From: Entomomonas asaccharolytica
GTDB lineage: Bacteria; Pseudomonadota; Gammaproteobacteria; Pseudomonadales; Pseudomonadaceae
Assembly: GCF_016653615.1 (NCBI RefSeq)
Contig: NZ_CP067393.1
Span: 1,379,673-1,443,672 of the forward strand
Length of the DNA stretch: 64,000 nt
Reading direction: 5' to 3'
The notes below the pieces were generated by a model. That model searched no databases and had not been told where the DNA came from. It saw nothing but the letters and a program-made list of their open reading frames with translations. How positions within the stretch are numbered: position 1 is the first letter of the stretch; every line of letters begins with the position of its first letter. A program made the translations under genes and the position numbers. Positions 18,646-32,409 of the stretch are shown here, piece by piece.

Positions 18646-18727
18646 CATGGTGATAAATGAGAGTATAGAAACTCTGATGTGGAGAAAATATAAATAGCAG
18701 ATTTTAGCAATAGAGATTAGAAAAACA

Positions 18728-18757: not shown

Positions 18758-18769
18758 ATAGTTATGGAT

Positions 18770-18911
18770 TACTAGTGTTACTAGTACCTACCCAGTGAGC
18801 TAAAGACCTTTAAAGCTCAGTACAATTTGACTAGATTGTATGGTCTATCCGCAAAGTCGATATAAGCGCACGGTAGCATCGACGGTTACTAAATATTAGT
18901 AATGTGTGCTT
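18770..18911 (+). ncRNA. Structured 5'-UTR RNA element, copy A (pseudoknot)
   Basis: Paired with copy B at 20439. Stems seen: hairpin TACTAGT-gtt-ACTAGTA (18770-86); TGAGCT/AGCTCA (18796-801, 18814-19); TACAAT/ATTGTA (18821-26, 18835-40); GTCGAT/ATCGAC (18856-61, 18878-83); TTACTAA/TTAGTAA (18886-92, 18896-902). AAGCGCAC inside the GTCGAT loop (18864-71) pairs with GTGTGCTT downstream (18904-11), making a pseudoknot. The first two stems differ from copy B by changes on both strands while loops are constant, which is direct evidence for RNA structure. It sits at the 5' end of a transcript leading into leader-controlled genes. I cannot name an Rfam family. Confidence 0.7.
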
Positions 18912-18931
18912 TCTAAATTGTCAATTTATAA

Positions 18932-18990
18932 CCCTATGGGAGCGTTCCCACTAGGGCACCTCCCATGTATTACATAGGAGGCAAATTATG
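18932..18990 (+). promoter_or_regulatory. Leader switch L1, before a four-codon ORF
   Basis: Hairpin CCCTATGGGA/TTCCCACTAGGG (18932-56), then CCTCC (18959-63) paired with the ribosome site GGAGG (18977-81) around an inner ATGTA/TACAT. The full leader architecture is followed only by MSAL-stop (18988-19002): either a leader peptide or a leader whose gene was lost. Confidence 0.55.
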
Positions 18991-19070
18991 TCAGCATTAT
19001 GATGCAGACACACTAACAATTTATTAGATATAAAGCTGTATATTATTATCTAAATTATTCAATCAATTAT

Positions 19071-19142
19071 CCACCCACCTAGACGGGGAAATACTTTCCC
19101 TGTTAAGCGGTGAGTGTTTCTCCGTTTATATCGGAGAAACAA
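19071..19142 (+). promoter_or_regulatory. Leader switch L2
   Basis: The anti-ribosome-site strand TGTTTCTCCG (19115-24) is a perfect 10-bp complement of CGGAGAAACA (19132-41), which holds the ribosome site. The same strand can pair 10 bp (with G-U) with GGGGAAATAC (19085-94) in the upstream hairpin. Confidence 0.65.
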
Positions 19143-19448
19143 ATGGATAACGCTTATACACTGCAATTTAATGATTGTAGGGCAACTGCTAATCAAGTTG
19201 AACCTATAAAGATAAGCATCATTATCTGTAATGTGGTTTGTCATTATATCAATGATAACCAAATAACCATTACTTTTACTGATGCGATTACTTGTCAAAT
19301 GGCAAGGGACATTTTAGGTGACGAAGATTGGCAGTTTAAAAGTGAGAAAATAATTTATGGTACTCATGTCAATGAACTTGGTTACAAGATTCAACGACAT
19401 TATTTTAATTCACTGTCAGTATTAACTGACTTTTCTGAAGTGAAATAA
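19143..19448 (+). CDS. Small accessory protein, ~100-aa paralogous family
   Basis: A 101-residue soluble protein beginning MDNAYTLQFNDC. The start is the ATG directly behind the L2 ribosome site, not the upstream GTG. It has a predicted beta-rich core (ITITFTDAITCQMARDILGD-W) and an end (HYFNSLSVLTDFSE) that resemble the proteins at 25063 and 25765, which share the order beta strand, F-x-(S/D)-x-x-x-x-x-x-A, W, and a terminal aromatic/Leu-rich motif. No known domain recognised. It is the first complete gene of the RNA-A transcript. Confidence 0.6.
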   Translation: MDNAYTLQFNDCRATANQVEPIKISIIICNVVCHYINDNQITITFTDAITCQMARDILGDEDWQFKSEKIIYGTHVNELGYKIQRHYFNSLSVLTDFSEVK

Positions 19449-19464
19449 TGACCATAAATTTTAA

Positions 19465-19530
19465 CCCATAAGGGGAATACTTTTCCTTTATGGGAGTGGT
19501 ATTTCCTTAAGTTTTTAAAGAGGAAATACC
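19465..19530 (+). promoter_or_regulatory. Leader switch L3
   Basis: Hairpin CCCATAA...TTATGGG (19465-94). GGTATTTCC (19498-506) pairs perfectly with GGAAATACC (19522-30), which abuts the start codon and follows AGAGG; GTATTTCC also matches GGGAATAC (19473-80) in the hairpin. Confidence 0.65.
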
Positions 19531-19836
19531 ATGAAAGTAATTAATTCTATTTATCTTTTTATCAAACATTTATTGCTAAGTGTTTTTAGGACTAAAAAAC
19601 GATTATTTAGTGATGAGGAGCGAGAAAGATTAGATGCTTCGTTTAGAAGGATTTGTGCTATCCAGTGTGAAATATTTGCAGATGAACCTAAATCTCAAAT
19701 AAAAGGTAAAAAGTTTCTGGAGTGTTCAGAGGGTATTTTTATATTACCTGATAATTTTACAAAAGATGACTTTTTAGCAATGCAAGGACTAGTACAAGTT
19801 AAACCAGAGACAAAGCATAAAAAAGAAAATTGCTAA
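19531..19836 (+). CDS. Hypothetical leader-controlled protein
   Basis: A 101-residue basic protein with a hydrophobic N-terminal segment (SIYLFIKHLLLSVF), possibly a membrane anchor or amphipathic helix, followed by a charged domain with one Cys pair region (RRICAIQCEIFADEPKSQ). No family recognised. It is second in the RNA-A transcript, with leader L3 occupying the whole gap from the previous gene, so its translation appears to be controlled separately. Confidence 0.55.
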   Translation: MKVINSIYLFIKHLLLSVFRTKKRLFSDEERERLDASFRRICAIQCEIFADEPKSQIKGKKFLECSEGIFILPDNFTKDDFLAMQGLVQVKPETKHKKENC

Positions 19837-19850
19837 TTTGCAATTACTTA

Positions 19851-19918
19851 CCCATAAGGGAAATACTTTCCCTATGGGAGTGGTGTTTCCCTTTTATTTA
19901 ATTAAATGGAGAAACACC
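19851..19918 (+). promoter_or_regulatory. Leader switch L4
   Basis: Hairpin CCCATAAGGG...CCTATGGG (19851-78). GGTGTTTC (19882-89) pairs perfectly with GAAACACC (19911-18) just before the ATG; GTGTTTCCC also pairs over 9 bp (one G-U) with GGGAAATAC (19858-66) in the hairpin. Confidence 0.65.
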
Positions 19919-20287
19919 ATGAGAATTACCAGTAATGATGTACAAACATTAATGTTATTAGTAAAACGTTTCATGTTAGCACTAATGATGGGCGTTAAAT
20001 ATGTAGCAGTAGGAAATAGTGCTGCACTTAATGAAATAACTTTAGGTAGTGACCAGGTAGAGAAAAAGCCAACACCTTCTAAAAGGAGAGTAAGGCAATT
20101 TTCACCAGTGGTTATCAATCAAGATATTTATGATATACCTGCAATGGTAAGGCTTCATAAAGTTAAATTAGATAAGTGGCAAGAAGAAAATCTAAAACCT
20201 ATTGCATTAGATAAAATCTTAAAAGAACATTATGAACAATTGACAGCCAAAGGTTTAAAACCAAGCAATCTATATTTGGATGTTTAA
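19919..20287 (+). CDS. Hypothetical leader-controlled protein
   Basis: A 122-residue protein starting MRITSNDVQTLM at the ATG after leader L4; an upstream in-frame ATG (19838) would translate the leader itself and is rejected. There is an amphipathic N-terminal helix, a basic middle (PTPSKRRVRQF) and a C-terminal part containing DKILKEHYEQLTAKGLKPSNLYLDV, a helix-turn-strand pattern reminiscent of small ICE proteins in which a Gly-Leu-Lys-Pro turn precedes the end. No function assigned. Last gene before a terminator. Confidence 0.55.
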   Translation: MRITSNDVQTLMLLVKRFMLALMMGVKYVAVGNSAALNEITLGSDQVEKKPTPSKRRVRQFSPVVINQDIYDIPAMVRLHKVKLDKWQEENLKPIALDKILKEHYEQLTAKGLKPSNLYLDV

Positions 20288-20325
20288 ATTGTTATTAATT
20301 GTTATTCGATAGTAATCAAACCTAT

Positions 20326-20350
20326 AGCCGATCATTTGATCGGCTTTTTT
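20326..20350 (+). terminator. Rho-independent terminator
   Basis: AGCCGATCA/TGATCGGCT with a 2-base loop followed by a T-run, 38 bases after the preceding stop. It closes the RNA-A transcription unit. Confidence 0.85.
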
Positions 20351-20396
20351 AATATTACTTGATGCAGCTTTAGCTCTTAAAGTTAACTTAAAGCTA

Positions 20397-20425
20397 TTGA
20401 CACAACTAGATATTTAGATAAGAAT
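20397..20425 (+). promoter_or_regulatory. Promoter of RNA element B / accessory operon 2
   Basis: TTGACA (20397-402) followed after 16-17 bases by a weak -10 (TAAGAA/AAGAAT). It is at nearly the same distance from RNA B as the copy-A promoter is from RNA A. Confidence 0.5.
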
Positions 20426-20438
20426 AAAGTTTCACAGC

Positions 20439-20577
20439 GTCATCGTTGATGACACTGCCCAGTGAGTCAAAGACCTTTGAGACTCAGTACAATTTGACTA
20501 GATTGTATGGTCTATCCGCAAAGTCGATAAAAGCGCACGGTAGCATCGACGGTTACTAATTTTAGTAATGTGTGCTT
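20439..20577 (+). ncRNA. Structured 5'-UTR RNA element, copy B (pseudoknot)
   Basis: Second copy of the element at 18770. Hairpin GTCATC-gtt-GATGAC (20439-53) has a completely different stem but the same GTT loop as copy A. TGAGTC/GACTCA (20463-68, 20481-86) is changed on both strands relative to TGAGCT/AGCTCA. The TACAAT/ATTGTA, GTCGAT/ATCGAC and TTACTAA/TTAGTAA stems and the AAGCGCAC (20531-38) with GTGTGCTT (20570-77) pseudoknot are identical. It leads into leader L5 and the DUF3275 gene. Confidence 0.7.
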
Positions 20578-20598
20578 TATACATACAAATTCTATTAC

Positions 20599-20615
20599 TG
20601 TTAACAGTGTTAACA
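20599..20615. promoter_or_regulatory. 17-bp palindrome TGTTAACA-G-TGTTAACA, copy 3
   Basis: Identical to 3766-3782; here it lies between RNA element B and leader L5, inside the predicted 5' UTR. Confidence 0.45.
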
Positions 20616-20628
20616 GAAGATCAATTCA

Positions 20629-20709
20629 CCCAATTGGGGAAATGCATTTCCTCAATACTGGGACTCGTGTTTCTCCAATATCTATTTATTTTATTTATTG
20701 GAGTTAAAT
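20629..20709 (+). promoter_or_regulatory. Leader switch L5
   Basis: Hairpin CCCAATTGGGG... closing at 20662. CTCCAATA (20673-80) pairs perfectly with TATTGGAG (20696-703), the ribosome site; GTGTTTCTCC (20667-76) can instead pair over 10 bp, including G-U pairs, with GGGGAAATGC (20636-45). Confidence 0.6.
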
Positions 20710-21312
20710 ATGATTACTATCCCAGGTACACTTACCATTGTTACATTGGATGGACGTTTTGGTCCATTTAATACAGCAAAATTGACTACATCAATAGGCG
20801 AATTTGTTGTCAAAGACAAAGAACTTGACCAGTACAAAGCAGGCAAGTATCAAGGCCAATTTGTGATAGATAAGATTCAACCTTCACATTACTGTTATGG
20901 TAATCGTTTTGTCGTTGAGTGTCGTGCTTATTTAAATAGCTTCGAACTTAATGAAAATGATGACTTAACACCTGAAGAAGAAGCTGCTTTTTCTACGAAT
21001 GCACAAGATCCGTTAGAAGAAGAAAAGCCATTTACTTCAGATTCCTCTAAAAAATATTCAAAAGCAGCACCTAAACCTGCTAAGAATAAAGCAAATTCTA
21101 AACAAACTAATGACTCTACAGCAGAAGCTGCAACAGATAAATCATCTGATGATGAAAAGCTGTTTGGTTTACTATGGCCACTTGGTAATAGTATAAAACT
21201 AGATTCAACTTGTGATCGTGAAACAATGCGTATGCAGAAGGCACGATTAGAAGAACTTGGTTATGAATTTGATTTTCGTACACAACTTTGGAATTTAATT
21301 ACCGCATTCTAA
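20710..21312 (+). CDS. DUF3275 family protein
   Basis: A 200-residue protein. The N-terminal half (MITIPGTLTIVTLDGRFGPFNTAKLTTSIGEFVVKD) matches DUF3275, common in PFGI-1-type ICEs. A Lys/Ala/Ser-rich linker (residues 100-150) joins it to a C-terminal helical domain (RETMRMQKARLEELGYEFD). The start is ATG 20710 after the L5 ribosome site. Family function is unknown; it is usually near genes for DNA metabolism. It opens the long RNA-B transcript. Confidence 0.8.
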   Translation: MITIPGTLTIVTLDGRFGPFNTAKLTTSIGEFVVKDKELDQYKAGKYQGQFVIDKIQPSHYCYGNRFVVECRAYLNSFELNENDDLTPEEEAAFSTNAQDPLEEEKPFTSDSSKKYSKAAPKPAKNKANSKQTNDSTAEAATDKSSDDEKLFGLLWPLGNSIKLDSTCDRETMRMQKARLEELGYEFDFRTQLWNLITAF

Positions 21313-21333
21313 TTCTAAACCACTTCACACTAT

Positions 21334-21374
21334 TAATCCCGTCAGGGTAACTCCCTGGCACGAGCACGGGATTA
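21334..21374 (+). promoter_or_regulatory. Leader hairpin L6 (divergent type)
   Basis: TAATCCCGT (21334-42) pairs perfectly with ACGGGATTA (21366-74) around an inner CAGGG/CCCTG stem. Unlike the other leaders, no strand complementary to the downstream ribosome site (GAGGAAA) is evident. Confidence 0.5.
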
Positions 21375-21401
21375 CGCTGACCAAACGATGAGGAAACAAG
21401 C

Positions 21402-21839
21402 ATGGGATGGTTATACTGCGAACATTCAAAACAGTCTTTAGTAGAAAGATTAACTAAACCTTGGGAAGATAACGATTGTTCAGTACATACAATTAAACAT
21501 TGTATTCGTAAAGAACGAGGAGAAATCATCTTGTGGACAGTTAATGAGTATACCTTTAAAAAAGATAATGATTTTTATGGAAATCGACAAGTTGGTGATA
21601 AGGCCAAAGTGATTCATTGCATTATTATTTCTCAACATCCAGATTATTCATCTGGTTGGAACAGTTGGGGGTACAATGCGATGAGTGAATCAGCAGGTCC
21701 TTATTATTATCGTTGTCCCATGAGCTATTTAAGACTTGCTGATGCAGGTATTGATAGCAAATGGCGAGAAGAAGTAAAAAATTATCACCAAAGACTACGA
21801 AACAAACAAAAATTTATCATGCAGTTAATTCAAAAGTAG
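21402..21839 (+). CDS. Conserved ICE protein, unknown function
   Basis: A 145-residue soluble protein rich in aromatic residues: DYSSGWNSWGYNAMSESAGPYYYRCPMSYL is a striking Trp/Tyr/Gly segment followed by a basic helical C-terminus (WREEVKNYHQRLRNKQKF). It starts behind GAGGAAA. Similar unnamed proteins occur in ICE accessory regions; I cannot attach a domain name. It lies in the RNA-B operon between the DUF3275 gene and the duplicated MGLD-like genes. Confidence 0.6.
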   Translation: MGWLYCEHSKQSLVERLTKPWEDNDCSVHTIKHCIRKERGEIILWTVNEYTFKKDNDFYGNRQVGDKAKVIHCIIISQHPDYSSGWNSWGYNAMSESAGPYYYRCPMSYLRLADAGIDSKWREEVKNYHQRLRNKQKFIMQLIQK

Positions 21840-21866
21840 ACTGCTATATAAATTAACTTCACCTTA

Positions 21867-21932
21867 CTGAAGGGTAGCTATAAATCCTTCAGGAAATATA
21901 TCTGCCCTTTATATTTCTAAAGGAAATTAATA
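21867..21932 (+). promoter_or_regulatory. Leader switch L7
   Basis: Hairpin CTGAAGG/CCTTCAG (21867-92). CCTTT (21906-10) pairs with AAAGG (21919-23) of the ribosome site, and GAAATATA/TATATTTC can form nearby. Confidence 0.5.
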
Positions 21933-22268
21933 ATGGGCGTAATGTTATTATTTGAAAAAACACCTTATGCTTCAGTTGAAACAGTTGGAGATTTCTATAG
22001 TCGAGCAATGCTACATTGGTTAAACAAAAATGTTTGTTTAGTCGATGCTGCTGTAGATGTAGAGCTTCATAAAGGACATATACATCATTTAGTAAATGAC
22101 CTTAATCGACTGACTACTGAAAATCGTGATCAGATTTTTCCTCTATCTTGGGGAGAAAATGAAGAAGATTATTGGAAGTATGTGGCAGAGGTAAAAACTT
22201 GGGCAGAAAAAATACTAAAAGAGTTTGATTTTAGCAGTAATAAACTCAGTTTTTCTGCCTCTTGGTAA
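21933..22268 (+). CDS. Small phage/ICE protein, paralogue of the gene at 22351
   Basis: A 111-residue acidic protein. The C-terminus (EDYWKYVAEVKTWAEKILKEFDFSSNKLSFSASW) lines up with that of the next gene (DYWNCVAELKRWVTDTLSTFDFEKNDLLLTAWW), so the two are tandem paralogues. Both resemble a widespread small phage protein family with a W-x-x-x-L-x-x-L pattern and a terminal Trp; the function is not established. It has its own leader L7. Confidence 0.6.
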   Translation: MGVMLLFEKTPYASVETVGDFYSRAMLHWLNKNVCLVDAAVDVELHKGHIHHLVNDLNRLTTENRDQIFPLSWGENEEDYWKYVAEVKTWAEKILKEFDFSSNKLSFSASW

Positions 22269-22293
22269 TCTACATTAAAACTTAACTAACCCT

Positions 22294-22350
22294 CTAGGGG
22301 CATTTGCCTCTAGGTAAATGCTTTTAGATTTATTCATAGGAGTATTTACA
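22294..22350 (+). promoter_or_regulatory. Leader switch L8
   Basis: Hairpin CTAGGGGC/GCCTCTAG (22294-313). GTAAATGC (22314-21) pairs with GTATTTAC (22342-49), which lies between AGGA and the ATG; the same strand can pair with GCATTTGC in the hairpin loop. Confidence 0.55.
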
Positions 22351-22710
22351 ATGGGTTTAGATATAACAATGAGCTATAGGCCAAAGTCAGATTATGCAGA
22401 GCTGACAACATTTGGATATAACAACCCGTTATTTGCATGGGTTGAAAAGCACATTATAGAAGAAATAGATATTGATACAGAGGTCTTAATTACTCTAGAA
22501 AATCTCCAAAAGTTAAGAGATACATTGGAACAACTTAATGAGACTAATTGTCAGGAGCTATTTCCTGTCGATGATGACTTATATTATGGTGTTCAAGAGT
22601 ATAACCAAGACTATTGGAATTGTGTAGCTGAATTAAAGCGATGGGTAACAGATACCTTAAGCACATTTGATTTTGAAAAAAATGATCTTTTATTAACTGC
22701 TTGGTGGTAA
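22351..22710 (+). CDS. Small MGLD-type protein, paralogue of the gene at 21933
   Basis: A 119-residue acidic protein beginning MGLDITMSYRPKSDY, similar to small phage proteins that start MGLDMYL and of unknown function. The body has two helices (LITLENLQKLRDTLEQLN; YWNCVAELKRWVTDTLSTF). The start is fixed by leader L8 and AGGA; an upstream ATG within the leader is rejected. Duplication with the preceding gene includes the leader position. Confidence 0.6.
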   Translation: MGLDITMSYRPKSDYAELTTFGYNNPLFAWVEKHIIEEIDIDTEVLITLENLQKLRDTLEQLNETNCQELFPVDDDLYYGVQEYNQDYWNCVAELKRWVTDTLSTFDFEKNDLLLTAWW

Positions 22711-22729
22711 AACACAAAGCTAATACACC

Positions 22730-22798
22730 CCTAGGGGCATTTAATGCCCTAGGCGTTGATGCTCCTTTTATTTAATGAATAATTAATTGGAGCAGATT
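22730..22798 (+). promoter_or_regulatory. Leader switch L9
   Basis: Hairpin CCTAGGGGCA/TGCCCTAGG (22730-53). TGCTCC (22760-65) pairs with ribosome site GGAGCA (22789-94); GATGCTCC can alternatively pair with GGGGCATT in the hairpin (G-U allowed). Confidence 0.6.
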
Positions 22799-23473
22799 AT
22801 GTATACAACAAATGCAGTCAGAAAAGAGGAGAATACTACTTCTCTTGAAAAACACATGCACAGGTTAGAAGAAATACCTGACTTAATGTGTGATGCTTGT
22901 GTGGTAGATAAATACAACAACTTAGTCTTCTTATCAGTATGGGGACGTGATACAGCACTACAAGAGCTCTATTCACGAATTACTCTTGCTAAAAAAGACA
23001 AAGAATTTGGATTGGAATACCTAACCTTTAAAATACAGGGTGTACGTACACGGGTTTATGTTGGCAATGTTAAAGAGCTAACAAAACGATCCACTAGAAC
23101 GTATAAACAAACCAAGTTTGGCACCTTATTACATACATGGATATTTGATAAGAGTTGTATCAAGCCTGACAAAGCTAATCATACTGCAACAGTACTTCTT
23201 GAAGGAGAAATACCAATAGAAGAATTTGCTCAGTATCATTGGTCAGTCATCAAAGATATATGCCCGTTACCTTTGTTAGATCATTGGCGATCAGAAATCA
23301 CACCATTATTGATTGATCATAAAATGTGTGAAGATCTGAAAACCTTTTTTGGACAAGTGGGAGGAGTACGTCTAATACTAGATATACCCAAGCTCGAAGA
23401 ATCAATGGGAGATCTTATCCTACGTGATAGATTAACCACATATCCAACACACCATACTGGCTTACAGCATTAA
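22799..23473 (+). CDS. Conserved ICE protein, unknown function
   Basis: A 224-residue soluble protein of mixed alpha/beta character (DACVVDKYNNLVFLSVWGRDTALQELYSRI; RTRVYVGNVKEL). No catalytic motif stands out. It immediately precedes and is probably co-translated with the methyltransferase gene: 14 bases separate them, and this is one of the few internal gaps with no leader hairpin. That pairing suggests a joint role with the methyltransferase, though I cannot say what. The start at 22799 is set by the L9 ribosome site. Confidence 0.6.
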   Translation: MYTTNAVRKEENTTSLEKHMHRLEEIPDLMCDACVVDKYNNLVFLSVWGRDTALQELYSRITLAKKDKEFGLEYLTFKIQGVRTRVYVGNVKELTKRSTRTYKQTKFGTLLHTWIFDKSCIKPDKANHTATVLLEGEIPIEEFAQYHWSVIKDICPLPLLDHWRSEITPLLIDHKMCEDLKTFFGQVGGVRLILDIPKLEESMGDLILRDRLTTYPTHHTGLQH

Positions 23474-23487
23474 TAAGGAGGCTAGAT

Positions 23488-24966: not shown

Positions 24967-24989
24967 CTATTTATAAAACCAACCTGTTA

Positions 24990-25062
24990 GAGGGTATGAA
25001 AATACCCTCAAGGTATTTCATACCTTTTTTTATGAATTTTTAATGAAATGAGAGGTATGAAC
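24990..25062 (+). promoter_or_regulatory. Leader switch L10
   Basis: Hairpin GAGGGTAT/ATACCCTC (24990-25009). TTCATACCT (25017-25) pairs perfectly with AGGTATGAA (25053-61) covering the ribosome site, and also with GGTATGAA inside the hairpin. Confidence 0.65.
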
Positions 25063-25392
25063 ATGACTATTCCAACAGAATGCTGTAACAGCATACATTT
25101 AACTAATGCTATCGAGATTGATGGAAAAGTATCACTTATTGATATATTTCTTAATGGTGTTGTACGTGTCCGTGTTACAAATGAAGCGGGCTACGGAAAG
25201 CAACTAAGGGTGACTTTTAACAGTGAGCAATCAATGAAATTTGCATTAAAGCATACTCATTGGGCACGCAAACCAGCAGAAGTAAATACCATAGCAGCAG
25301 ACATCCATGAGAAAGGTATTCGAGTTAAGAGGACTTTCTATAGAGACTTTGATCTTCTATCCAGTTTATCGGAGGGATCGAAGGATGTCTGA
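25063..25392 (+). CDS. ~100-aa accessory protein, first of a duplicated gene pair
   Basis: A 109-residue protein starting MTIPTECCNSIHL. Predicted beta-rich, with LRVTFNSEQSMKFALKHTHWARK in the middle and FYRDFDLLSSL near the end; the same layout recurs in the genes at 19143 and 25765. No known domain. Its 3' end overlaps the next gene by 8 bases. The pair 25063/25385 is repeated as 25765/26082, each pair behind one leader, so a leader plus two genes was duplicated as a unit. Confidence 0.6.
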   Translation: MTIPTECCNSIHLTNAIEIDGKVSLIDIFLNGVVRVRVTNEAGYGKQLRVTFNSEQSMKFALKHTHWARKPAEVNTIAADIHEKGIRVKRTFYRDFDLLSSLSEGSKDV

Positions 25393-25690
25393 TAGTAGCC
25401 AAGCCACAGCACAGCAATTGCAGTTTACTGGTTGTGATAATGGCTTTTTAAAAAATGAAAAGATCACTATAGAAGGAGTGATCAATTTAACATTCAGTGA
25501 GTTTAGGGGATGCTGTGCAGTTTCAATAATGTTTGAGTCAGCAGAAGCCTGTTTTATGGCAAATGAAAAATTGTCATGGCGATATGCAGATCCAACGTAT
25601 GCTCCTAATACTTTAAATGGCACATATGAAAGACAAAAAGGTTTTGTTATTCAAGGCTGTTATTTTAAAAGTATGAACTATGATGAGTGA
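25385..25690 (+). CDS. ~100-aa accessory protein, second of a duplicated gene pair
   Basis: A 101-residue protein starting MSDSSQATAQ behind GGAGGG inside the end of the preceding gene. The core LQFTGCDNGFLKNEKITIEGVINLTF and the end GTYERQKGFVIQGCYFK align with the gene at 26082 (LRFYGCQDKHDQDKEIIIEGV; GIFDRRKGGYFIKGQYFK). No known domain. Translational coupling to the first gene of the pair suggests that the two products act together. Confidence 0.6.
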   Translation: MSDSSQATAQQLQFTGCDNGFLKNEKITIEGVINLTFSEFRGCCAVSIMFESAEACFMANEKLSWRYADPTYAPNTLNGTYERQKGFVIQGCYFKSMNYDE

Positions 25691-25710
25691 TATAAATTAA
25701 AACTAACCTA

Positions 25711-25764
25711 TAGGGTATGTAATTACCCTTGGGTACATTCATACCCATTTTTTAGGAGTATGTA
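25711..25764 (+). promoter_or_regulatory. Leader switch L11
   Basis: Hairpin AGGGTA/TACCCT (25712-29). ACATTCATACCC (25735-46) pairs over ten bases with one bulge to GTATGTAATGT, covering ribosome site and start codon (25755-68), and over seven with GGGTATG in the hairpin. Confidence 0.6.
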
Positions 25765-26085
25765 ATGTGTACTAATGATAAAAGATTAATTATTGCCTTA
25801 TCCAATGGACATGACCTAGATGGAGAGCTTGTTGTAGACGAATGTGTACTTAAGGGTGTTAAACATATTTCATTTAACTATATGTTTGATACAGACAGTA
25901 CCATAACAGTGCAATTTGATTCTGAAGAATCCTTTCAAGAGGCCTTAAAGCTGACTGATTGGAGGTTGTCTTTGAATCATAATCACAGTCTAGGTATTAA
26001 TTGTGCTGAAGGTGGGGTAAGAATAGCTAATATTGTTTATGAAAAAATAGATGTATTACTTGATACTCAAGGAGCTACATCATGA
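25765..26085 (+). CDS. ~100-aa accessory protein, first gene of the duplicate pair
   Basis: A 106-residue protein paralogous to that at 25063: LVVDECVLKGVKHISFNY, TVQFDSEESFQEALKLTDWR and a terminal VYEKIDVLLD block occupy the same order. It starts at the ATG inside the L11 structure. Its stop overlaps the start of the next gene (ATGA). Function unknown; sequence divergence between the duplicates is large, so the duplication is not recent. Confidence 0.6.
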   Translation: MCTNDKRLIIALSNGHDLDGELVVDECVLKGVKHISFNYMFDTDSTITVQFDSEESFQEALKLTDWRLSLNHNHSLGINCAEGGVRIANIVYEKIDVLLDTQGATS

Positions 26086-26399
26086 TTGTTTTTAAGCAAA
26101 GCAATAAAAAACTAAAACCTTATCGTTTAAGGTTTTATGGTTGTCAGGATAAACATGATCAGGATAAAGAAATTATTATTGAAGGTGTTATAAGACACTT
26201 ATCTTATGTGGATTATAAAAACCACTATATCAATGTTAGTTTCCTTAATCTAGATTGGTATCTATTAGGACTTGAAGTATTAAGTTTTAATCCTTTAAGT
26301 TCTGATGCGCTGCCTAATACATTAGTTGGCATATTTGATCGTAGAAAAGGTGGTTATTTTATTAAAGGCCAATATTTTAAGTATTTGGAGCAAAAATAA
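26082..26399 (+). CDS. ~100-aa accessory protein, second gene of the duplicate pair
   Basis: A 105-residue protein paralogous to that at 25385, with LRFYGCQDKHD, the shared EIIIEGVI strand and the closing GYFIKGQYFKYLEQK. It is translationally coupled to the preceding gene through an ATGA overlap, with no leader of its own. No recognised domain or membrane segment. Confidence 0.6.
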   Translation: MIVFKQSNKKLKPYRLRFYGCQDKHDQDKEIIIEGVIRHLSYVDYKNHYINVSFLNLDWYLLGLEVLSFNPLSSDALPNTLVGIFDRRKGGYFIKGQYFKYLEQK

Positions 26400-26435
26400 C
26401 GACAGCTGATCATTAAGCTACAACTTAAACCTACA

Positions 26436-26487
26436 GGGTATGAAAGTACCCAAGGGTTAATTCATACCCTTTTAACAGGAGTATGAA
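26436..26487 (+). promoter_or_regulatory. Leader switch L12
   Basis: Hairpin GGGTA/TACCC (26436-51). TTCATACCC (26461-69) is complementary to GGGTATGAA in the hairpin (nine perfect pairs) and to GTATGAA (26481-87) next to the start codon. Confidence 0.6.
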
Positions 26488-26784
26488 ATGCAAATAAGTC
26501 TTTTTAGTGGTTATTTTCCTCCAGAGGACGATGACGAAGAACAACTAAAAGAAGGGCCAGTAGTTAAAAATATCGTAAAAATGGATTACATGATTACGGT
26601 AGGTTTAGCAGTTTGGTTTAGTAATTTAACCGATCTTGAAATTGCATCTCAACAAACAGGGTGGCCTAGAGATAGCGAAGAACTTTGTTTAATCGTGCAA
26701 GAATTCTATGATCAAATTGTTATTAAAGACAGAGAAACAGACGAAGTAACTTATTACGAACGTCTTTTTATACACGAAAATTAA
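26488..26784 (+). CDS. Acidic hypothetical protein
   Basis: A 98-residue acidic protein with a Glu/Asp-rich N-terminus (FPPEDDDEEQLKE) and a core ITVGLAVWFSNLTDLEIASQQTGW that loosely recalls the strand-helix-W pattern of the ~100-aa family in the preceding genes. Start fixed by leader L12 (AGGA ribosome site). No domain recognised. Confidence 0.5.
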   Translation: MQISLFSGYFPPEDDDEEQLKEGPVVKNIVKMDYMITVGLAVWFSNLTDLEIASQQTGWPRDSEELCLIVQEFYDQIVIKDRETDEVTYYERLFIHEN

Positions 26785-26791
26785 TTTAAAT

Positions 26792-26867
26792 CCCACAGGG
26801 TATGAACAATACCCTATGGGAGTACTGTGTTCATACCTTGTTTTTCTTATTTTTTGGAGAAACAACA
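26792..26867 (+). promoter_or_regulatory. Leader switch L13
   Basis: Hairpin CCCACAGGGTAT/ATACCCTATGGG (26792-820). TGTTCATACC (26828-37) is a perfect 10-bp match to GGTATGAACA (26799-808) inside the hairpin; pairing with the ribosome-site region (GGAGAAACA) is weak, unlike in the other leaders. Confidence 0.55.
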
Positions 26868-29210
26868 ATGAACACAGCAATACAAAACATACCAGGTAAG
26901 GGACTAGTACAAGATTTAAGCGTATTTATTAATACGTTTAAAGGGCAGTTACTAGACTCACTAGGACAATCTAATCCACCTGTGTACACACCTGAAAAAG
27001 CCAATCCTATTCGTCAAGCGATTATGGATAACCTTATTCGTCAGCCATTCCCTGCCCAAGCAGAGATAGTGCAAGCAGTTTGTGCACTGTTAATAGACAG
27101 CAACGAACCTGCGGCTATTATCAATGCAGAAATGGGGACTGGTAAGACAATGATGGCTATTGCGATTGCAGCGGTATTATTTGCTGAAGGCTATAAACGA
27201 TCACTGGTTATATCACCACCCCATTTAGTTTATAAATGGCGACGTGAAATACTAGAAACAGTACCTCATGCCAAAGTATGGGTATTGAATGGTCCAGATA
27301 CATTAGCAAAGCTTCTACAAGCGAGAGAGGCTTTAAAGGTAAAAAGTGAAGATGTACCAGAATTTTACATTCTAGGTCGTGTCAGAATGCGTATGGGCTA
27401 CCATTGGAAACCTGTATGTAAAAATGGACGATTTGTAGAGCGTTATCTGGATGAAGATTCACAAAAGACCTTTACAAAAATAAGACCAGCAGCCTGTTGC
27501 CCAGACTGTTTTAGTCACATCATTAATCCAAAATCAGAACAACCTTACACACCTGAAGAGTTTTGTGAGATCAAAAATCAACAACAGTGTGAAAGTTGTG
27601 GTAGTAAGCTTTGGACATTAATGAATGGTAAAAAAGTTGAGCATAAGCAAGCTGACTCAGAAGCTGAAGAAATCGAGCAACAAGATTTTCGGAAGCAACT
27701 GGTTAAAGAAATGTGCAAAATCCCTACGATTGGTACTGCAACAGCTAACAAACTTATTAATACGTTTGGAACTGATTTTATTGCAGAAATGCTCGTAGAC
27801 AATGTACATAACTTTATTAACTTAATGGATGAAAAAGGTGACTTAATCTTTAATGATAGCCAAGCAGTCCGTATGGAGCGAGCTTTAGGGAAAATAGAGT
27901 TTAGTTTTGGGCAAGGTGGATACCAAGCTTCAGAATTTATTAAACGCTATCTACCTCAAGACTACTTTCATCTACTGATCGTGGACGAAGGGCATGAGTA
28001 CAAAAATGAAGGATCTGCACAAGGTCAAGCTATGGGAGTACTGGCTAGTAAAGTAAAAAAAATACTGTTACTGACAGGTACACTCATGGGAGGCTATGCA
28101 TCAGATCTCTTTTACTTATTGTTCAGAGTTATTACGAGCAGAATGATTGAAGATGGGTACAAACCCAATGAGCGAGGTAGTTTAGCTACTGCCTCAACAG
28201 CATTCCAACGTGATCATGGCATATTAAAAGACATCTTTACTGAAAAACAAGGGGAAAGCCACAAGACAGCTAAGGGCAATAAAATGGTCCATAGAACGTC
28301 AAAGGCTCCTGGTTTTGGTCCTAAAGGTATTTTACGGTATGTACTACCTTTCACCGTTTTCTTGAAATTAAAGGAAATAGGGGGAGATATACTGCCAGAA
28401 TATACCGAGGAGTTTGTTGAAGTAGATATGACAGACGAACAACAAGACGCTTATAGCTACCTTGTTGGTACCTTAACTACCTTACTAAAAAAAGCATTAG
28501 CACGTGGGGATACCTCACTGCTAGGCGTAGTACTTAATACCTTACTAGCATGGCCTGATTGTTGTTTTAGAGAAGAAACAGTAACGCATCCTAGGGATAC
28601 AAACGATGATGGTACACCTAAAGTATTGGCAAAAGTAGAAAGCCTATTTACGCCAGTGAACATCATGCCCAAAGAAGCAGAACTGATTCGAATTTGCCGA
28701 GAGGAAAAAGCGAATAATCGAAGAGTCCTTGTGTACTCAACCTACACACAGACTAGAGATACAACGCATAGACTCAAGACTATTCTAGAACGAGAAGGTT
28801 TTAAGGTAGGTGTCTTAAAATGTAAGCCAGAGGAACGTGAAGACTGGATTTTGGCACGTGTAGAGGAGGGCATTGATGTACTTATCTGCAATCCAGAACA
28901 AGTTAAGACAGGCCTCGATTTACTGGACTTTCCTACTATTGTTTACATGCAAACAGGATTTAATGTTTACACCATGATGCAAGCAAGCAGAAGATCTTGG
29001 CGGATCGGGCAAACACAAGTTGTTAGAGTAATATTTTTAGGTTATAGGGATACGACACAGATAAACTGTTTAGAACTTATGGCCAAAAAAATAGCGGTTA
29101 CCCAAAGTACATCGGGCGACATACCAGACAGCGGTTTAGATTGCTTAAATCCAGATAGTGAGTCAGTAGAAATGGCATTAGCTAAACAGCTACTGGCAAA
29201 AGCTGCTTAA
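26868..29210 (+). CDS. SNF2/DEAD-like helicase
   Basis: A 780-residue superfamily 2 ATPase. Motif I AEMGTGKT lies near residue 87, the motif II box DEGH near residue 372, LLTGTLMGG (motif III) near 402, and the C-terminal lobe has QASRRSWRIGQ, the motif VI signature of SNF2-type enzymes. An insertion near residues 200-255 carries CPDC...CESC, a probable zinc-binding element. The start is the ATG at 26868 behind GGAGA; an upstream start within the leader is rejected. In related ICEs this helicase accompanies the DUF6094 methyltransferase; DNA remodelling or anti-restriction is plausible. Confidence 0.86.
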   Translation: MNTAIQNIPGKGLVQDLSVFINTFKGQLLDSLGQSNPPVYTPEKANPIRQAIMDNLIRQPFPAQAEIVQAVCALLIDSNEPAAIINAEMGTGKTMMAIAIAAVLFAEGYKRSLVISPPHLVYKWRREILETVPHAKVWVLNGPDTLAKLLQAREALKVKSEDVPEFYILGRVRMRMGYHWKPVCKNGRFVERYLDEDSQKTFTKIRPAACCPDCFSHIINPKSEQPYTPEEFCEIKNQQQCESCGSKLWTLMNGKKVEHKQADSEAEEIEQQDFRKQLVKEMCKIPTIGTATANKLINTFGTDFIAEMLVDNVHNFINLMDEKGDLIFNDSQAVRMERALGKIEFSFGQGGYQASEFIKRYLPQDYFHLLIVDEGHEYKNEGSAQGQAMGVLASKVKKILLLTGTLMGGYASDLFYLLFRVITSRMIEDGYKPNERGSLATASTAFQRDHGILKDIFTEKQGESHKTAKGNKMVHRTSKAPGFGPKGILRYVLPFTVFLKLKEIGGDILPEYTEEFVEVDMTDEQQDAYSYLVGTLTTLLKKALARGDTSLLGVVLNTLLAWPDCCFREETVTHPRDTNDDGTPKVLAKVESLFTPVNIMPKEAELIRICREEKANNRRVLVYSTYTQTRDTTHRLKTILEREGFKVGVLKCKPEEREDWILARVEEGIDVLICNPEQVKTGLDLLDFPTIVYMQTGFNVYTMMQASRRSWRIGQTQVVRVIFLGYRDTTQINCLELMAKKIAVTQSTSGDIPDSGLDCLNPDSESVEMALAKQLLAKAA

Positions 29211-29222
29211 TAAAACAACTTA

Positions 29223-29279
29223 CCCACTAGGGAGAAACTTCCCTGGTGGAAGTTTCTCCTTATTACTAGGAGAAAATAC
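29223..29279 (+). promoter_or_regulatory. Leader switch L14
   Basis: Hairpin CCCACTAGGGA/TCCCTGGTGG (29223-49). AAGTTTCTCC (29250-59) pairs ten perfect bases with GGAGAAACTT (29231-40) in the hairpin and seven with the ribosome site GGAGAAA (29269-75). Confidence 0.7.
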
Positions 29280-29978
29280 ATGTTAGATCTACCAAACACT
29301 GTGTATAACAGTGATTATACTAAGTTAGCCTATTTAATTGCACAAAGCTTAGCTGATCTGCGTTATTCATTGCCCAATGATGATCAACTTCTCAGTGTAA
29401 TTAAAAATTGTGATAGCTCAGTTGAAGTAGCACATGCTATTAACAAATACTACGTGTCACTACTAAATGAAGCATTGCTTAAAAGTGCAGGAACAGGTAA
29501 AGCTGCTGTTGCAACGCTATTAAATGTTCAATACTGGAAGCATGACGGAGATCCAAGTGGAGATCGTTGTAGTATCCATTTTTTACAGTACATGTTTGAA
29601 AATCCAACGAGAGAAGATATAAAAACATTCTGTAAATACATGGATTATTACATTTTAAACCTTCACTTAGGTGGTTTTAATGGTCATACAACCTTTTCAG
29701 TGACATTACCTCAAAAAGCTCTTAATCAGCTAACAGAGGAAAAACTGGATAGGTATATGTGTCCATTAATGTTTCGTAGTGGTGAAATAAATAGTCAGCC
29801 TACCATTACAGGCTATCTATTAGATGTTGGCCTTATGCGGCAACATGATACTGAAACTAAAAATCACTTTGGCTTTGTTCAAAGAACATTCGATGTGATT
29901 AAGGACTACAACCGATTTATTCTACATGCAGAAGATTTTTTACCTGATTATTTGATAATTAATCTAGCTGAAGAATAA
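29280..29978 (+). CDS. ~230-aa tandem accessory family, member 1
   Basis: A 232-residue soluble protein, the first of six consecutive paralogues. The shared layout is: an N-terminal helix with YxxLAxLIxxSLADL, a linker, a helix NKYYVSLLNEALL, a central block ending in a strand (CSIHFLQYMF), a helix region, the strand TTFSVTLPQKAL, then a C-terminal DFLPDYLIINL. It is the most divergent of the set, with an insertion of Gly/Asp around DGDPSGDRCS. No known domain; Gln/Asn/aromatic-rich and without membrane segments. Each gene of the array has its own leader. Confidence 0.6.
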   Translation: MLDLPNTVYNSDYTKLAYLIAQSLADLRYSLPNDDQLLSVIKNCDSSVEVAHAINKYYVSLLNEALLKSAGTGKAAVATLLNVQYWKHDGDPSGDRCSIHFLQYMFENPTREDIKTFCKYMDYYILNLHLGGFNGHTTFSVTLPQKALNQLTEEKLDRYMCPLMFRSGEINSQPTITGYLLDVGLMRQHDTETKNHFGFVQRTFDVIKDYNRFILHAEDFLPDYLIINLAEE

Positions 29979-29994
29979 AAAACTTTAACCAACA

Positions 29995-30063
29995 CCCATT
30001 GGGGATATTCCCCAGTGGAGTATCTCCAAGTTTATTACTAATTAACTAATGGAGATTATAAAA
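29995..30063 (+). promoter_or_regulatory. Leader switch L15
   Basis: Hairpin CCCATTGGGGA/TCCCCAGTGG (29995-30018). TATCTCC (30021-27) pairs with GGAGAT of the ribosome site (30051-56) or with GGGGATA (30001-07) in the hairpin. Confidence 0.65.
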
Positions 30064-30774
30064 ATGGCAATTTTTAATAGTGGTCAAATACTTGTAAGGT
30101 ATGGTGGTACGAGCCTAGCTAGTTACTTATATGAGTTTGTTTGTAAGATTGAGCGTAAATGTAAGGCCTATAGAGTTCCTACAATGACGGATCTTTTGAA
30201 TGAAGTAGTTGAGCATTCAAGGGATGAAATATCTTTAGCCCATAACATCAATCAATACATGATGGAACAAGCGGTTAAAGTTATTTACAGAAGTATTAAT
30301 CGTGATTGTAGAGATATTATAGAGCAACAGTTACAGGTTAATAAAAAATTTGATGCAACAAATCCTGAATTTGATAATTGTGAGTTTGTTTTTTTACATC
30401 ATCGGGTTCTAGGAACAAATGTAGAGTTATTAATAGAGCTTCAGAAGTATATTGAAGAATATGCAAAGAATCTTGTTAGTAACGGTATTCAAGCAAATGT
30501 GACTTTTTCACTCACCGTTCCACAACTGGTATTAGATAAGTTAAATAAGGGAGCTGTAAGTAAATATTTAGATCAGGTAACTAATCCGAATATTGAAAAC
30601 AAAACTATTCCTAATACCTATTTATTACGGTTGGGAGAGATGAGGCGAAAAAAAACACGAGAGCAGGGTGTTTATTGTTACCTTAAAGCAGCAGATATAC
30701 TTTGGGCACATAATGATAGTTATTGTGATGTCCCAGATGAAAATCCTGATTTTATAGTGTTAACAGTAAAGTAA
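30064..30774 (+). CDS. ~230-aa tandem accessory family, member 2
   Basis: A 236-residue paralogue of its neighbours: FVCKIERKCK in the first helix, INQYMMEQAVKVIYRSI, the strand CEFVFLHHRVL, NVTFSLTVPQLVLDKL and a final DENPDFIVLTVK. The start is ATG 30064 after L15; an ATG 15 bases upstream overlaps the ribosome site. More basic than the other members. Function unknown. Confidence 0.6.
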   Translation: MAIFNSGQILVRYGGTSLASYLYEFVCKIERKCKAYRVPTMTDLLNEVVEHSRDEISLAHNINQYMMEQAVKVIYRSINRDCRDIIEQQLQVNKKFDATNPEFDNCEFVFLHHRVLGTNVELLIELQKYIEEYAKNLVSNGIQANVTFSLTVPQLVLDKLNKGAVSKYLDQVTNPNIENKTIPNTYLLRLGEMRRKKTREQGVYCYLKAADILWAHNDSYCDVPDENPDFIVLTVK

Positions 30775-30797
30775 TGTTGTTCAATTAATTTTATACA

Positions 30798-30859
30798 CCC
30801 ATTGGGGAGATATTCCCCAATGGGGAGTATCTCCATTTTTTATTATTTTGGAGATTAAT
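30798..30859 (+). promoter_or_regulatory. Leader switch L16
   Basis: Hairpin CCCATTGGGGA/TTCCCCAATGGG (30798-824). TATCTCC (30828-34) pairs with GGAGATA (30806-12) in the hairpin (seven perfect) or ribosome site GGAGAT (30850-55). Confidence 0.65.
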
Positions 30860-31555
30860 ATGTCAAAAACAATAGCAAGAATTGTTGCTTTAGGTTATTC
30901 AGAACTAGCTAATGATCTATATGATTTTGTAAAAAGTCGGGGGCAATTACCTGATGAAGAAACAGTCCTACAGATACTTAAGGGTAGTACTGATTTTAAT
31001 GAAATAGGTAATCAGCTAAATCACGTATTCTTAGAATGTACCAGAGAAGCCTTATTAAATGCGGTGTCTCAGGAAAACAGAGAAAAAGTACGTGCCATGC
31101 TACTAATACGGGAAGATCTACACGAAGATTCTACTCAAGATCAGTTTGAAATTAGATTTTTAGATAGAACTTTAGGCTATGTAGATACTGCTGTATTAGA
31201 TGATTTCTATTTTTCATTACAAAGGTATGAGCGAGATTATCTAGCTAATAACCTTACAAGAAAAGTAACGTTTTCATTGGAGGCTCCTAATCAGTTGATT
31301 GATTCATTGTTAGCAATAGAGGGATTAAATACCTTTCTATATCAAACAGCAGTTGAACCAACGGATAACAGAGAACATGAAACTTACATTTTGCACCAAG
31401 GACTTATCAGGCAGTTATGGAGGTCACAGGAAGTTAGCTTTGAAAAGCTGTCACAGCTTCATAGCTTAATACGTCCCTATATGGGGAGATTAAGAGAGAA
31501 TTCTGTTACACATCCTTTTAATGCTGAATTTATTGTGATCAATGTAAAGGCTTAA
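30860..31555 (+). CDS. ~230-aa tandem accessory family, member 3
   Basis: A 231-residue protein very similar to member 4 (SKTIARIVALGYSELANDLYDFVKSRGQLPDEE versus AMETIVATGYSKLAEELYYFVKSLGKLPD). Also conserved are EALLNAVSQENREKV, QFEIRFLDRTLGY, KVTFSLEAPNQLIDSLLAIEGL and EFIVINVKA at the end. This pair is the most recent duplication of the array. Unknown function; the Gly-Tyr-Ser N-terminal motif and the terminal FIVINV strand are the best family signatures. Confidence 0.6.
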   Translation: MSKTIARIVALGYSELANDLYDFVKSRGQLPDEETVLQILKGSTDFNEIGNQLNHVFLECTREALLNAVSQENREKVRAMLLIREDLHEDSTQDQFEIRFLDRTLGYVDTAVLDDFYFSLQRYERDYLANNLTRKVTFSLEAPNQLIDSLLAIEGLNTFLYQTAVEPTDNREHETYILHQGLIRQLWRSQEVSFEKLSQLHSLIRPYMGRLRENSVTHPFNAEFIVINVKA

Positions 31556-31569
31556 TAAACCTTAAATAA

Positions 31570-31626
31570 CCCATTGGGGATACGTCCCCAATGGGGAGTA
31601 TCTCTAAATTTATTTTGGAGATAAAA
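31570..31626 (+). promoter_or_regulatory. Leader switch L17
   Basis: Hairpin CCCATTGGGGA/TCCCCAATGGGG (31570-96). GTATCTC (31598-604) pairs with GGGGATAC (31576-83) in the hairpin or with GGAGATA at the ribosome site (31617-23). Confidence 0.65.
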
Positions 31627-32319
31627 ATGTTAAAAGCAATGGAAACTATAGTGGCAACTGGCTATTCGAAATTAGCTGAAGAACTATATTACTTTGTGAA
31701 AAGTCTAGGGAAACTCCCTGATGGAAATGTAGTACTACGTATTTTAAACAGTGGTACTAGCATGAGTGATATAGGTAATAAGCTTAATTATCTTTTTTTG
31801 GAGGCTACAAAAGAGGCACTACTCAGTGGTGTATCTGATGAAAATCGAGAGAAGATAACTAAATTGCTAACATTAACCATTAATTTACAGGAAAACTCTA
31901 GGAAAGATAGCTTTCAAATTGGTTTTATGGGAACAATCGTAAGCCATGCAGATAGTGAAAGACTAGTAGAACTATATTACGCAATTAATAGATATGAAAA
32001 AGAGTTTTTAATTGCTGATTTAGAACCACAAGTATCATTCTCATTAGAGGCTTCTCAACAATTGATAGAGAAGTTGTTGGCAATAGATGGACTAGATAGT
32101 TATCTATTACAAACAACAGCAAAGCCTTGCGATAAGCAGGAGTTTGCTACTTATATTTTACAAACAGGACTTATTTATAAACTTTATCGTCAACGCAAGA
32201 ATACTTACCTAATACGCCAAGTTAAAGCTGTCTTTAACAAGTATTATCGTAAGAGCCATTGGAGATTAGCTCACTTTAGTAAAGCTAATTTCTATGTGAT
32301 TAACGTAAAAGAGAACTAA
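31627..32319 (+). CDS. ~230-aa tandem accessory family, member 4
   Basis: A 230-residue protein, closest to member 3 (EALLSGVSDENREKI, SFQIGFMGTIVSHADSE, VSFSLEASQQLIEKLLAIDGL, NFYVINVKEN). The C-terminal third is basic (YRQRKNTYLIRQVKAVFNKYYRK), unlike member 3, which could alter a binding surface. The start is set by the L17 ribosome site. No domain recognised. Confidence 0.6.
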   Translation: MLKAMETIVATGYSKLAEELYYFVKSLGKLPDGNVVLRILNSGTSMSDIGNKLNYLFLEATKEALLSGVSDENREKITKLLTLTINLQENSRKDSFQIGFMGTIVSHADSERLVELYYAINRYEKEFLIADLEPQVSFSLEASQQLIEKLLAIDGLDSYLLQTTAKPCDKQEFATYILQTGLIYKLYRQRKNTYLIRQVKAVFNKYYRKSHWRLAHFSKANFYVINVKEN

Positions 32320-32333
32320 GTTCTTAAACACAA

Positions 32334-32409
32334 CCCACTGGGGAAGCATTATTCCCTAGTGGGAATAGTGTTTCTCCAAATTAACTATTATTTATTTGGA
32401 GATTTTACT
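32334..32409 (+). promoter_or_regulatory. Leader switch L18
   Basis: Hairpin CCCACTGGGGAA/TTCCCTAGTGGG (32334-63). AGTGTTTCTCC (32367-77) can pair all eleven bases (with G-U) with GGGGAAGCATT (32340-50); TCTCCAAAT (32373-81) pairs perfectly with ATTTGGAGA (32394-402), the ribosome site. Confidence 0.7.

Follow-up and report, generated by a model that had tools for sequence, protein, structure and literature searches.

Competing strands in a family of gene leaders from an integrative and conjugative element and other proteobacterial mobile elements

The window analyzed here is a stretch of 64,000 nucleotides from Entomomonas asaccharolytica (assembly GCF_016653615.1, contig NZ_CP067393.1, positions 1,379,673 to 1,443,672 of the forward strand; genome G000, 3.24 Mb), in which the block from 18926 to 33.1 kb is the accessory region of an integrative and conjugative element (ICE). 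Of the 20 genes lying between 19.1 and 33.1 kb, 16 are preceded by a leader made of a hairpin (P1), a strand B and a ribosome site C. B can pair either with C or with a strand A that is itself part of P1. Both the window and the homologues give strong support to this competition between A and C for strand B, and the description of a leader that can switch therefore stands. At the level of sequence, the three pairings A:D (within P1), A:B and B:C are shown to exist and to persist while the sequences themselves change. The family is real and apparently uncatalogued.

From 5' to 3', a leader consists of an unpaired YYAA tag (Y, pyrimidine), strand 1 (CCC), A (GGG-rich), D (CCC), E (GGG), B and C, the last being the Shine-Dalgarno (SD) region. 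In fold 1, strand 1 pairs with E and A with D, forming P1, and B pairs with C, closing the ribosome site. In fold 2, A pairs with B, a D:E mini-hairpin stands at the tip and C is left without a partner; D:E reaches at least 3 bp in 139 of the 179 leaders of the collection described below. The hairpin, B and C were already part of the original prediction, made from the letters of the window; the YYAA tag, the D:E mini-hairpin and the radC RNA discussed below were not included in it.

Competition of A and C for strand B

Leaders were collected from the window, from loci of relatives and from 80 loci found with the helicase. The criteria were a CC..GG hairpin, a start codon and an SD sequence; neither B nor A was used. 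Candidates were dropped if P1 was weaker than -9 kcal/mol or longer than 44 nt, if the start was TTG, if the spacer fell outside 24-62 nt, if the hairpin lay within a called gene, or if none of GGAG, GAGG and AGGA was present. The collection holds 270 leaders from 76 loci, 208 of them nonredundant, and the 179 (66 loci) with a P1 of at most 34 nt were used.

The specificity of the pairings was measured by exchanging strands between leaders that share a locus (129 leaders from 31 loci, each with three or more; these loci are not fully independent, because some come from related species). A:B amounts to -15.17 kcal/mol with its own partner against -9.34 with swapped ones (z -12.9), and B:C to -10.70 against -7.75 (z -10.0), with 0 of 2000 permutations for each. 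The control pairings A:C, D:C and D:B were not significant (207, 213 and 1767 of 2000 permutations, respectively); C:D and A:C were accordingly rejected as pairings, the swap test having given no own-specific signal for either. The result is the same for 12 window leaders found by P1 only, in which A:B is -15.2 kcal/mol (swapped, -8.7) and B:C -10.45 (swapped, -7.2), again with 0 of 2000 permutations each. The claim that B is complementary to both A and C, and remains so although the sequences differ between genes, is thus borne out in the window as in its homologues. At least three bases of B are common to both partners in 170 of the 179 leaders, and in 142 the two helices are both strong and overlapping.

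A second line of evidence comes from a covariance model, R1, built from 71 leaders with a structure restricted to P1 and B:C (0.68 bits per position). The 150 best R1 matches were realigned, and the 95 nonredundant rows were tested column against column (Z against independence, with no correction for kinship). A:B, which is absent from R1, emerged as the strongest helix besides P1 and B:C (Z 4.2, compared with 7.1 for B:C and 4.3 for P1). The original prediction had called for a covariance model and for a search of ICE genomes, and homologues were indeed found. A single pair illustrates the point: when the leader of gene 32410 is set beside the corresponding one of G002, another genome from the same genus, changes are seen in the loop portion of A and in the portion of B that faces it, and both leaders pair (A:B -22.4 and -20.8). 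An earlier column test on a MAFFT alignment (A1) gave no clear helix, the alignment being too misaligned, and was replaced by the swaps and the model alignment. A permissive scan of the loci is not taken as evidence of how frequent the leaders are: it matched 542 of 1211 plus-strand called genes, but the minus strand also gave 146 of 665 genes and the reversed sequence 337 of 3036 open reading frames (ORFs).

The leaders of the window and their relatives

Fourteen of the 16 leader genes are recognized by R1 (E<=0.15; the leaders of 19531, 19919 and 30860 belonged to its training set), and two more, 25063 and 26488, by a strict scan for P1, A:B and B:C. An additional leader (18926-18990, R1 E 0.001) precedes an ORF of four codons. 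This agrees with the predicted figure of about 17 leaders before nearly every gene of the 19.1-33 kb region. The pairing listed there as L14, which belongs to gene 30064, is likewise recovered, with 10 bp for A:B and 7 bp for B:C. The leaders and the two radC copies, all on the plus strand, are as follows (window coordinates; energies in kcal/mol).

18727..18930 (+), second radC-like copy, upstream of the 18926 leader; 170 of 193 aligned bases identical to 20396-20594; not reported by Rfam
18926..18990 (+), leader before the 4-codon ORF (MSAL); P1 18932-18956, A 18935-18945, B 18958-18967, C 18977-18981; R1 E 0.0011
19072..19145 (+), leader of gene 19143; P1 19072-19112, A 19080-19095, B 19113-19128, C 19132-19141; R1 E 6.9e-6; A:B -21.4, B:C -15.6
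19459..19533 (+), leader of gene 19531; P1 19465-19494, A 19471-19481, B 19498-19508, C 19520-19530; R1 training sequence, strict scan
19845..19921 (+), leader of gene 19919; P1 19851-19878, A 19856-19867, B 19882-19893, C 19908-19918; R1 training sequence, strict scan
20424..20573 (+), radC RNA (RF01754), 51 nt upstream of the 20624 leader; Rfam 40.3 bits, gathering score 40
20624..20712 (+), leader of the DUF3275 gene 20710, behind the radC RNA; P1 20629-20662, A 20633-20645, B 20667-20679, C 20698-20703; R1 E 0.0089, strict scan
21879..21935 (+), weak leader of gene 21933; R1 E 0.13; not found in the pairing listing
22284..22353 (+), leader of gene 22351; R1 E 0.026, also found by the scan without the CC/GG rule
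22722..22801 (+), leader of gene 22799; P1 22730-22753, A 22733-22746, B 22754-22766, C 22789-22794; R1 E 0.005, strict scan
24976..25065 (+), leader of gene 25063; P1 24982-25014, A 24989-25001, B 25016-25028, C 25050-25061; strict scan, not R1
25700..25767 (+), leader of gene 25765; P1 25706-25734, A 25713-25719, B 25740-25746, C 25755-25762; R1 25701-25762, E 0.0018, strict scan
26424..26490 (+), leader of gene 26488; P1 26430-26455, A 26435-26444, B 26461-26470, C 26477-26487; strict scan, not R1
26785..26870 (+), leader of the SNF2/DEAD helicase gene 26868; P1 26791-26821, A 26795-26812, B facing A 26822-26841, B facing C 26838-26847, C 26856-26865; R1 E 8.1e-6
29217..29282 (+), leader of gene 29280; P1 29225-29248, A 29228-29241, B 29249-29262, C 29268-29275; R1 E 9.5e-6
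29987..30066 (+), leader of gene 30064 (L14); P1 29996-30018, A 29999-30008, B 30020-30029, C 30050-30056; R1 E 0.0053
30792..30862 (+), leader of gene 30860; P1 30799-30823, A 30806-30816, B 30824-30834, C 30849-30855; R1 training sequence, terminator-like scan; ATTTTTTATT after the A:B hairpin
31564..31629 (+), leader of gene 31627; P1 31570-31595, A 31574-31586, B 31596-31607, C 31615-31623; R1 E 4e-8
32328..32412 (+), leader of gene 32410; P1 32335-32362, A 32339-32354, B 32363-32378, C 32396-32409; R1 E 8.5e-9

By R1 and the strict scan, no leader precedes the DUF6094 methyltransferase gene 23488 or the genes at about 25307-25690 and 26082, the latter two overlapping or abutting the gene before them. 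Gene 21402 has a doubtful leader, missed by both methods; its ortholog in G002 has P1 and A:B, with a weak B:C. Over the whole window and its 85 called genes, the strict scan gave 14 matches inside the region and one outside. The ICE also encodes a TraC protein (at 8729) and a TraI_2 relaxase/helicase (at 43001). From 29280 to 33525 run six tandem related genes, all except the last with a leader of their own, for which no Pfam match was obtained at E<=0.001 (five scanned full length, plus the sixth); since these genes are mutually related, their leaders are not independent cases. An Endonuclease I family gene (PF04231, 33704-34393), without an R1 match, closes the block. Helicase leaders are also present in other species. 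In G002 (loci L002, G002:C1:2715491-2717830, and L026), one helicase is identical in protein to that of the window and a second 94% identical; the identity suggests recent transfer.

In the genome G000, R1 matches 22 sites at E<=5: 19 plus-strand sites and two opposite-strand echoes fall within 1,367-1,412 kb, and one lies elsewhere; six leaders lie upstream of the window. In 78 related loci, R1 gave 600 matches at E<=1, training sequences included, and among the 300 of these that were listed three were on the minus strand (loci turned to the helicase). Under strict filters, matches occurred in 14 of 299 genomes of a phylum sample, G000 among them, and in 51 of 300 genomes of an order sample around G319, including G319 and G075. 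A 42-kb stretch of pKLC102, matched by 17 of the 119 ORFs of the window and its flanks, carries 11 plus-strand matches (E<=0.2), all within 12.0-19.95 kb and none at its pil or type IV secretion system (T4SS) genes; ten of them end on an annotated start codon. On the Sulfuricystis plasmid pSTJ2, 10 of 15 do so; the starts include those of RecT, a single-stranded DNA-binding protein (SSB), a PD-(D/E)XK nuclease, an ArdC-like protein and a helicase, and one further match ends 48 bases inside annotated radC. This plasmid (97% compared) shares only four of the 119 ORF matches with the ICE (TraD in two pieces, TraI_2 and TraC; the name TraD is taken from the pKLC102 annotation), a Hydrogenophaga plasmid three (TraD in two pieces and a methyltransferase) and a second Sulfuricystis plasmid nine. 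PLSDB types pSTJ2 as non-mobilizable and two of three Hydrogenophaga records as conjugative.

One genome, G648, is taken for a Neisseria because it contains exact copies of the published parA and traH primers of the gonococcal genetic island (GGI). Between parA and traH lie 14 R1 matches at E<=5, all on the plus strand and 12 of them at E<=0.025; outside this interval there are three weak ones. By R1, then, the family recurs in gamma- and betaproteobacterial ICE loci, in pKLC102, in two kinds of otherwise little-related plasmid and in a gonococcal-island-type element. The setting first proposed, the accessory block of an ICE, is right for the window and too narrow for the family. Eight genomes of one genus (G357, G399, G441, G479, G514, G543, G571 and G600; locus L188) have a single R1 match each, in G399 before an ORF of 87 amino acids, which may reflect use outside conjugative elements.

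Rfam 15 gave no match in the whole window at gathering thresholds. At E<=5, region 18500-34700 gave radC RNA and three sub-threshold matches, the leaders reaching no family, and six related sources gave six radC RNAs and one tRNA, again no leader family. Among the literature matches listed, by title and opening of the abstract, no publication dealt with the leaders, and an earlier mention is possible.

The radC RNA (RF01754; Weinberg et al. 2010, PMC2864571) is a separate structure of 149 nt that shares some elements with the leaders. The window copy was seen only in the E-value search of the region, and neither at gathering thresholds over the whole window nor in a search of its own genome. 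Rfam finds it also in three of six other sources (pKLC102, L033 and L040), not in the plasmid stretches L147, L151 and L159. A profile built from six of the copies found by Rfam, which misses the window's own copies, was run over 112 sources and returned 57 copies (training copies included, some near-duplicates) in 26 of them. Downstream of 56 of the 57, an R1 match (E<=0.05) starts within 60 nt, at a median of 11 (chance about 1.8% per position), and a leader is visible by eye behind the last; hence radC RNA hardly occurs there without a leader directly downstream. Leaders often occur without radC RNA, which was found in 26 of the 112 sources only. In G000, no R1 match lies near a radC RNA located at 415.8 kb. 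A different non-coding stretch of about 146 nt (L151:13070-13216), not radC RNA by Rfam, is 83-88% identical on 10 other plasmids; its hosts are plasmids of Pseudomonas, Cupriavidus, Halomonas, Burkholderia and Pantoea.

Folds, trigger and alternative explanations

In contrast to the gene-specific inner strands, the outer foot is held in common. Upstream of P1, the consensus is YYAA: of the 179 leaders, 151 have Y at -4, 135 have Y at -3, 105 have A at -2 and 130 have A at -1. Because CC had been required at the foot, the search was repeated without the CC/GG rule (253 nonredundant leaders): the 5' foot reads ACC in 164, against GGT at the mirror place in 64, and AACC in 92 against GGTT in 6, the AACC window being one base longer. 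It follows from this asymmetry that the sequence itself is kept at one side of the foot, beyond what the stem explains. Outside the expression platform there is no aptamer core of the metabolite-riboswitch kind; what is conserved is the CCC/GGG foot, an inner GG/CC, the SD, the start and the tag.

Calculated energies favor fold 1 in 153 of the 179 leaders and fold 2 in 17 (median gap 6.3 kcal/mol), and fold 1 is predicted to pair on average 4.2 of the five SD bases. For RNA that stops immediately ahead of the SD, the lower energy belongs to A:B in 116 leaders and to P1 in 41 (to A:B in just 24 with B swapped in), and the preference flips from A:B before the SD to P1 plus B:C after it in 91. 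When three bases of strand 1 are hidden, the expected pairs of A:B increase from 1.9 to 6.1 and those of B:C fall from 7.7 to 5.5; with P1 swapped, the same blocking changes them only from 0.1 to 1.0 and from 8.5 to 7.8. SD openness then exceeds 0.5 in 36 leaders, compared with 11 unblocked, and rises from 0.10 to 0.40 in 11 window leaders.

We favor, at about an even chance, a bistable and mainly translational switch with capture of YYAACCC as its likeliest trigger. Fold 1 would be the resting state of the finished mRNA, with the ribosome site closed, and fold 2 the open state, adopted during RNA synthesis or when the 5' strand YYAACCC is held; both this assignment and the trigger are what we infer. 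A trans-acting factor, protein or RNA and of the host or the element, could hold the strand, and would thereby act simultaneously on all leaders of one element despite their gene-specific A, B and C. The element might in this way keep its DNA-processing and establishment genes translationally quiet and then release them together. More tentatively, and with the balance of probability against it, one may imagine an uncatalogued control system across proteobacterial mobile elements: YYAACCC as a common handle on gene-specific inner strands, radC RNA heading the transcription unit in a subset (mostly Pseudomonas), and one factor, or a radC-modified polymerase, acting on the handle or on the A:B hairpins to free the whole set, perhaps when the element enters a new cell or is excised. 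If the proposed control is right, many ICE and plasmid genes (helicases, methyltransferases, SSB, RecT, ArdC-like proteins and many of unidentified function) would be under one hardly recognized control at the RNA level, the orphan radC RNA would gain a context, traH/parA-type control of the gonococcal island would extend to many genes, and a compact natural bistable switch would be available for study in hundreds of variants.

Several observations weigh against the translational switch. The equation of A:B with a free ribosome site, originally predicted, holds in that C loses its partner in fold 2, but a free, ON state is an extrapolation: fold 2 keeps at least four of five SD bases paired in 37% of the 179 leaders, and with strand 1 blocked the mean SD openness reaches no more than 0.30, from 0.19. 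Such partial opening, as modelled, speaks against a sharp on/off switch; tertiary contacts, ribosomes and polymerase are left out of the energies. The parts of B facing A and C overlap by fewer than three bases in nine of the 179 leaders and by only 4 nt in the helicase leader 26868, and in several Pseudomonas helicase leaders they may, by eye, hardly overlap. No element-encoded factor was found to be common to the ICE (119 ORFs) and pSTJ2 among proteins of at least 80 amino acids, where only those of TraD, TraI_2 and TraC type matched. For the parA switch of the gonococcal island, PMC8716806 reports that one small RNA had no effect and that, of more than 700 metabolites, only copper was confirmed, with a modest effect. 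Finally, once the 15 leaders with weak A:B are set aside, an A:B of -10 kcal/mol or lower is followed, 0-2 nt away, by at least five T in eight positions in 84 of 164, 50 of them strong.

Because of this U-rich tract, the A:B hairpin may be a terminator or pause site in part of the family, and the main rival, somewhat unlikely in our judgment, is a transcription attenuator. A:B with its tract would be an intrinsic terminator or pause hairpin, P1 the antiterminator, and B:C would lock translation of the read-through RNA; in its bold form, radC RNA, where present, would make the polymerase terminator-resistant along the operon. Such tracts follow P1 in just 26 and B:C in one of the 179 leaders; the T fraction after B is 0.46-0.66 over eight positions and 0.31-0.47 over the next seven, with 0.31 in an upstream control. 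Counting both strands, window positions 18500-33600 hold 20 terminator-like sites where 7.1 are expected and the GGI stretch holds 58 where 20.2 are expected, many of these lying outside leaders, and A:B is favored just as polymerase would reach the tract. Against the attenuator, 80 of the 164 leaders lack even five T in eight, and in the 15 leaders with at least 18 nt between B and the SD the T content beside B does not significantly exceed that of the next eight (p 0.18) or last eight (p 0.06) positions. In its pure form it also leaves the conservation of B:C unexplained.

A kinetic switch requiring no factor, in which nascent A:B is open and the finished RNA refolds to the closed P1 plus B:C, so that only fresh or tightly coupled mRNA is translated, has precedents in the MS2 maturation gene and hok mRNA. 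The energies before and after the SD agree with it; it leaves the conserved YYAA tag unexplained, only the 91 leaders noted above flip, and we consider it unlikely. Translation of the upstream gene was rejected as a general trigger: P1 begins at least 11 nt past the upstream stop in 95% of 171 cases and more than 36 nt past it in half, and leaders preceded by radC RNA have no called gene at that distance. The latter also counts against plain SD hairpins that set the expression level or couple translation to the gene upstream, with P1 as a stability hairpin or scanning block. The 41 of 171 cases in which P1 lies 10-19 nt past the stop, and the two of three leaderless window genes that overlap or abut the previous gene, would suit such hairpins; the own-specific A:B pairing would have no role, which makes them improbable. 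A DNA-level feature, such as recombination sites or single-stranded hairpins formed during transfer, would account for a repeated shape, kept while sequence varies and found mostly on mobile elements, and is hardly credible for matches that end on annotated start codons, contain an SD as C and follow the gene in orientation, with minus-strand matches as rare as given above.

Relation to known switches

The logic of the switch is of a known kind. In translational attenuators of the erm/cat type, too, two strands, the SD and an anti-anti-SD, compete for an anti-SD strand. Those attenuators differ in having a leader peptide; none was noticed in the present family, in which no systematic search for one was made, and the 4-codon ORF lies after the 18926 leader. 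What is new is that the device recurs before one gene after another, the strands being specific to each gene and the handle shared.

The closest likeness is with the gonococcal island, whose traH and parA transcripts were detected whereas the proteins hardly were, according to PMC8716806, on which the following account of both switches draws. At traH, two stem-loops close the SD and start codon, and if the 5' portion of stem-loop 1 cannot be used, a single stem-loop forms instead and leaves the start free; the activator was left unidentified there. Similarly, the alternative fold of our leaders is predicted to arise when the 5' leg of the first stem-loop is blocked, with partial opening of the SD, and the SD is predicted to be enclosed in a second stem-loop; both systems reside on T4SS elements. 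They differ in that traH is a single gene and the leaders form a series, and by eye no AACCC foot lies near traH. R1 does not match the traH leader, its best score there (6.0 bits) falling upstream of it. At parA, the second of two stem-loops covers the SD and start, mutants raise or abolish expression, and a favorable alternative fold was not found. Disruption of stem-loop 1 abolished rather than raised expression, and the direction assumed for our switch therefore calls for caution. The R1 alignment at parA ends on the start codon, with a score (9.2 bits, E 0.93) that is not significant. Common descent with the traH and parA switches is thus unsupported by R1, though 14 other sites of the island match. 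The twelve strongest of these, which go unmentioned in the passages of PMC8716806 consulted, lie within the GGI-type element at G648:C3:94001-113000 (L203).

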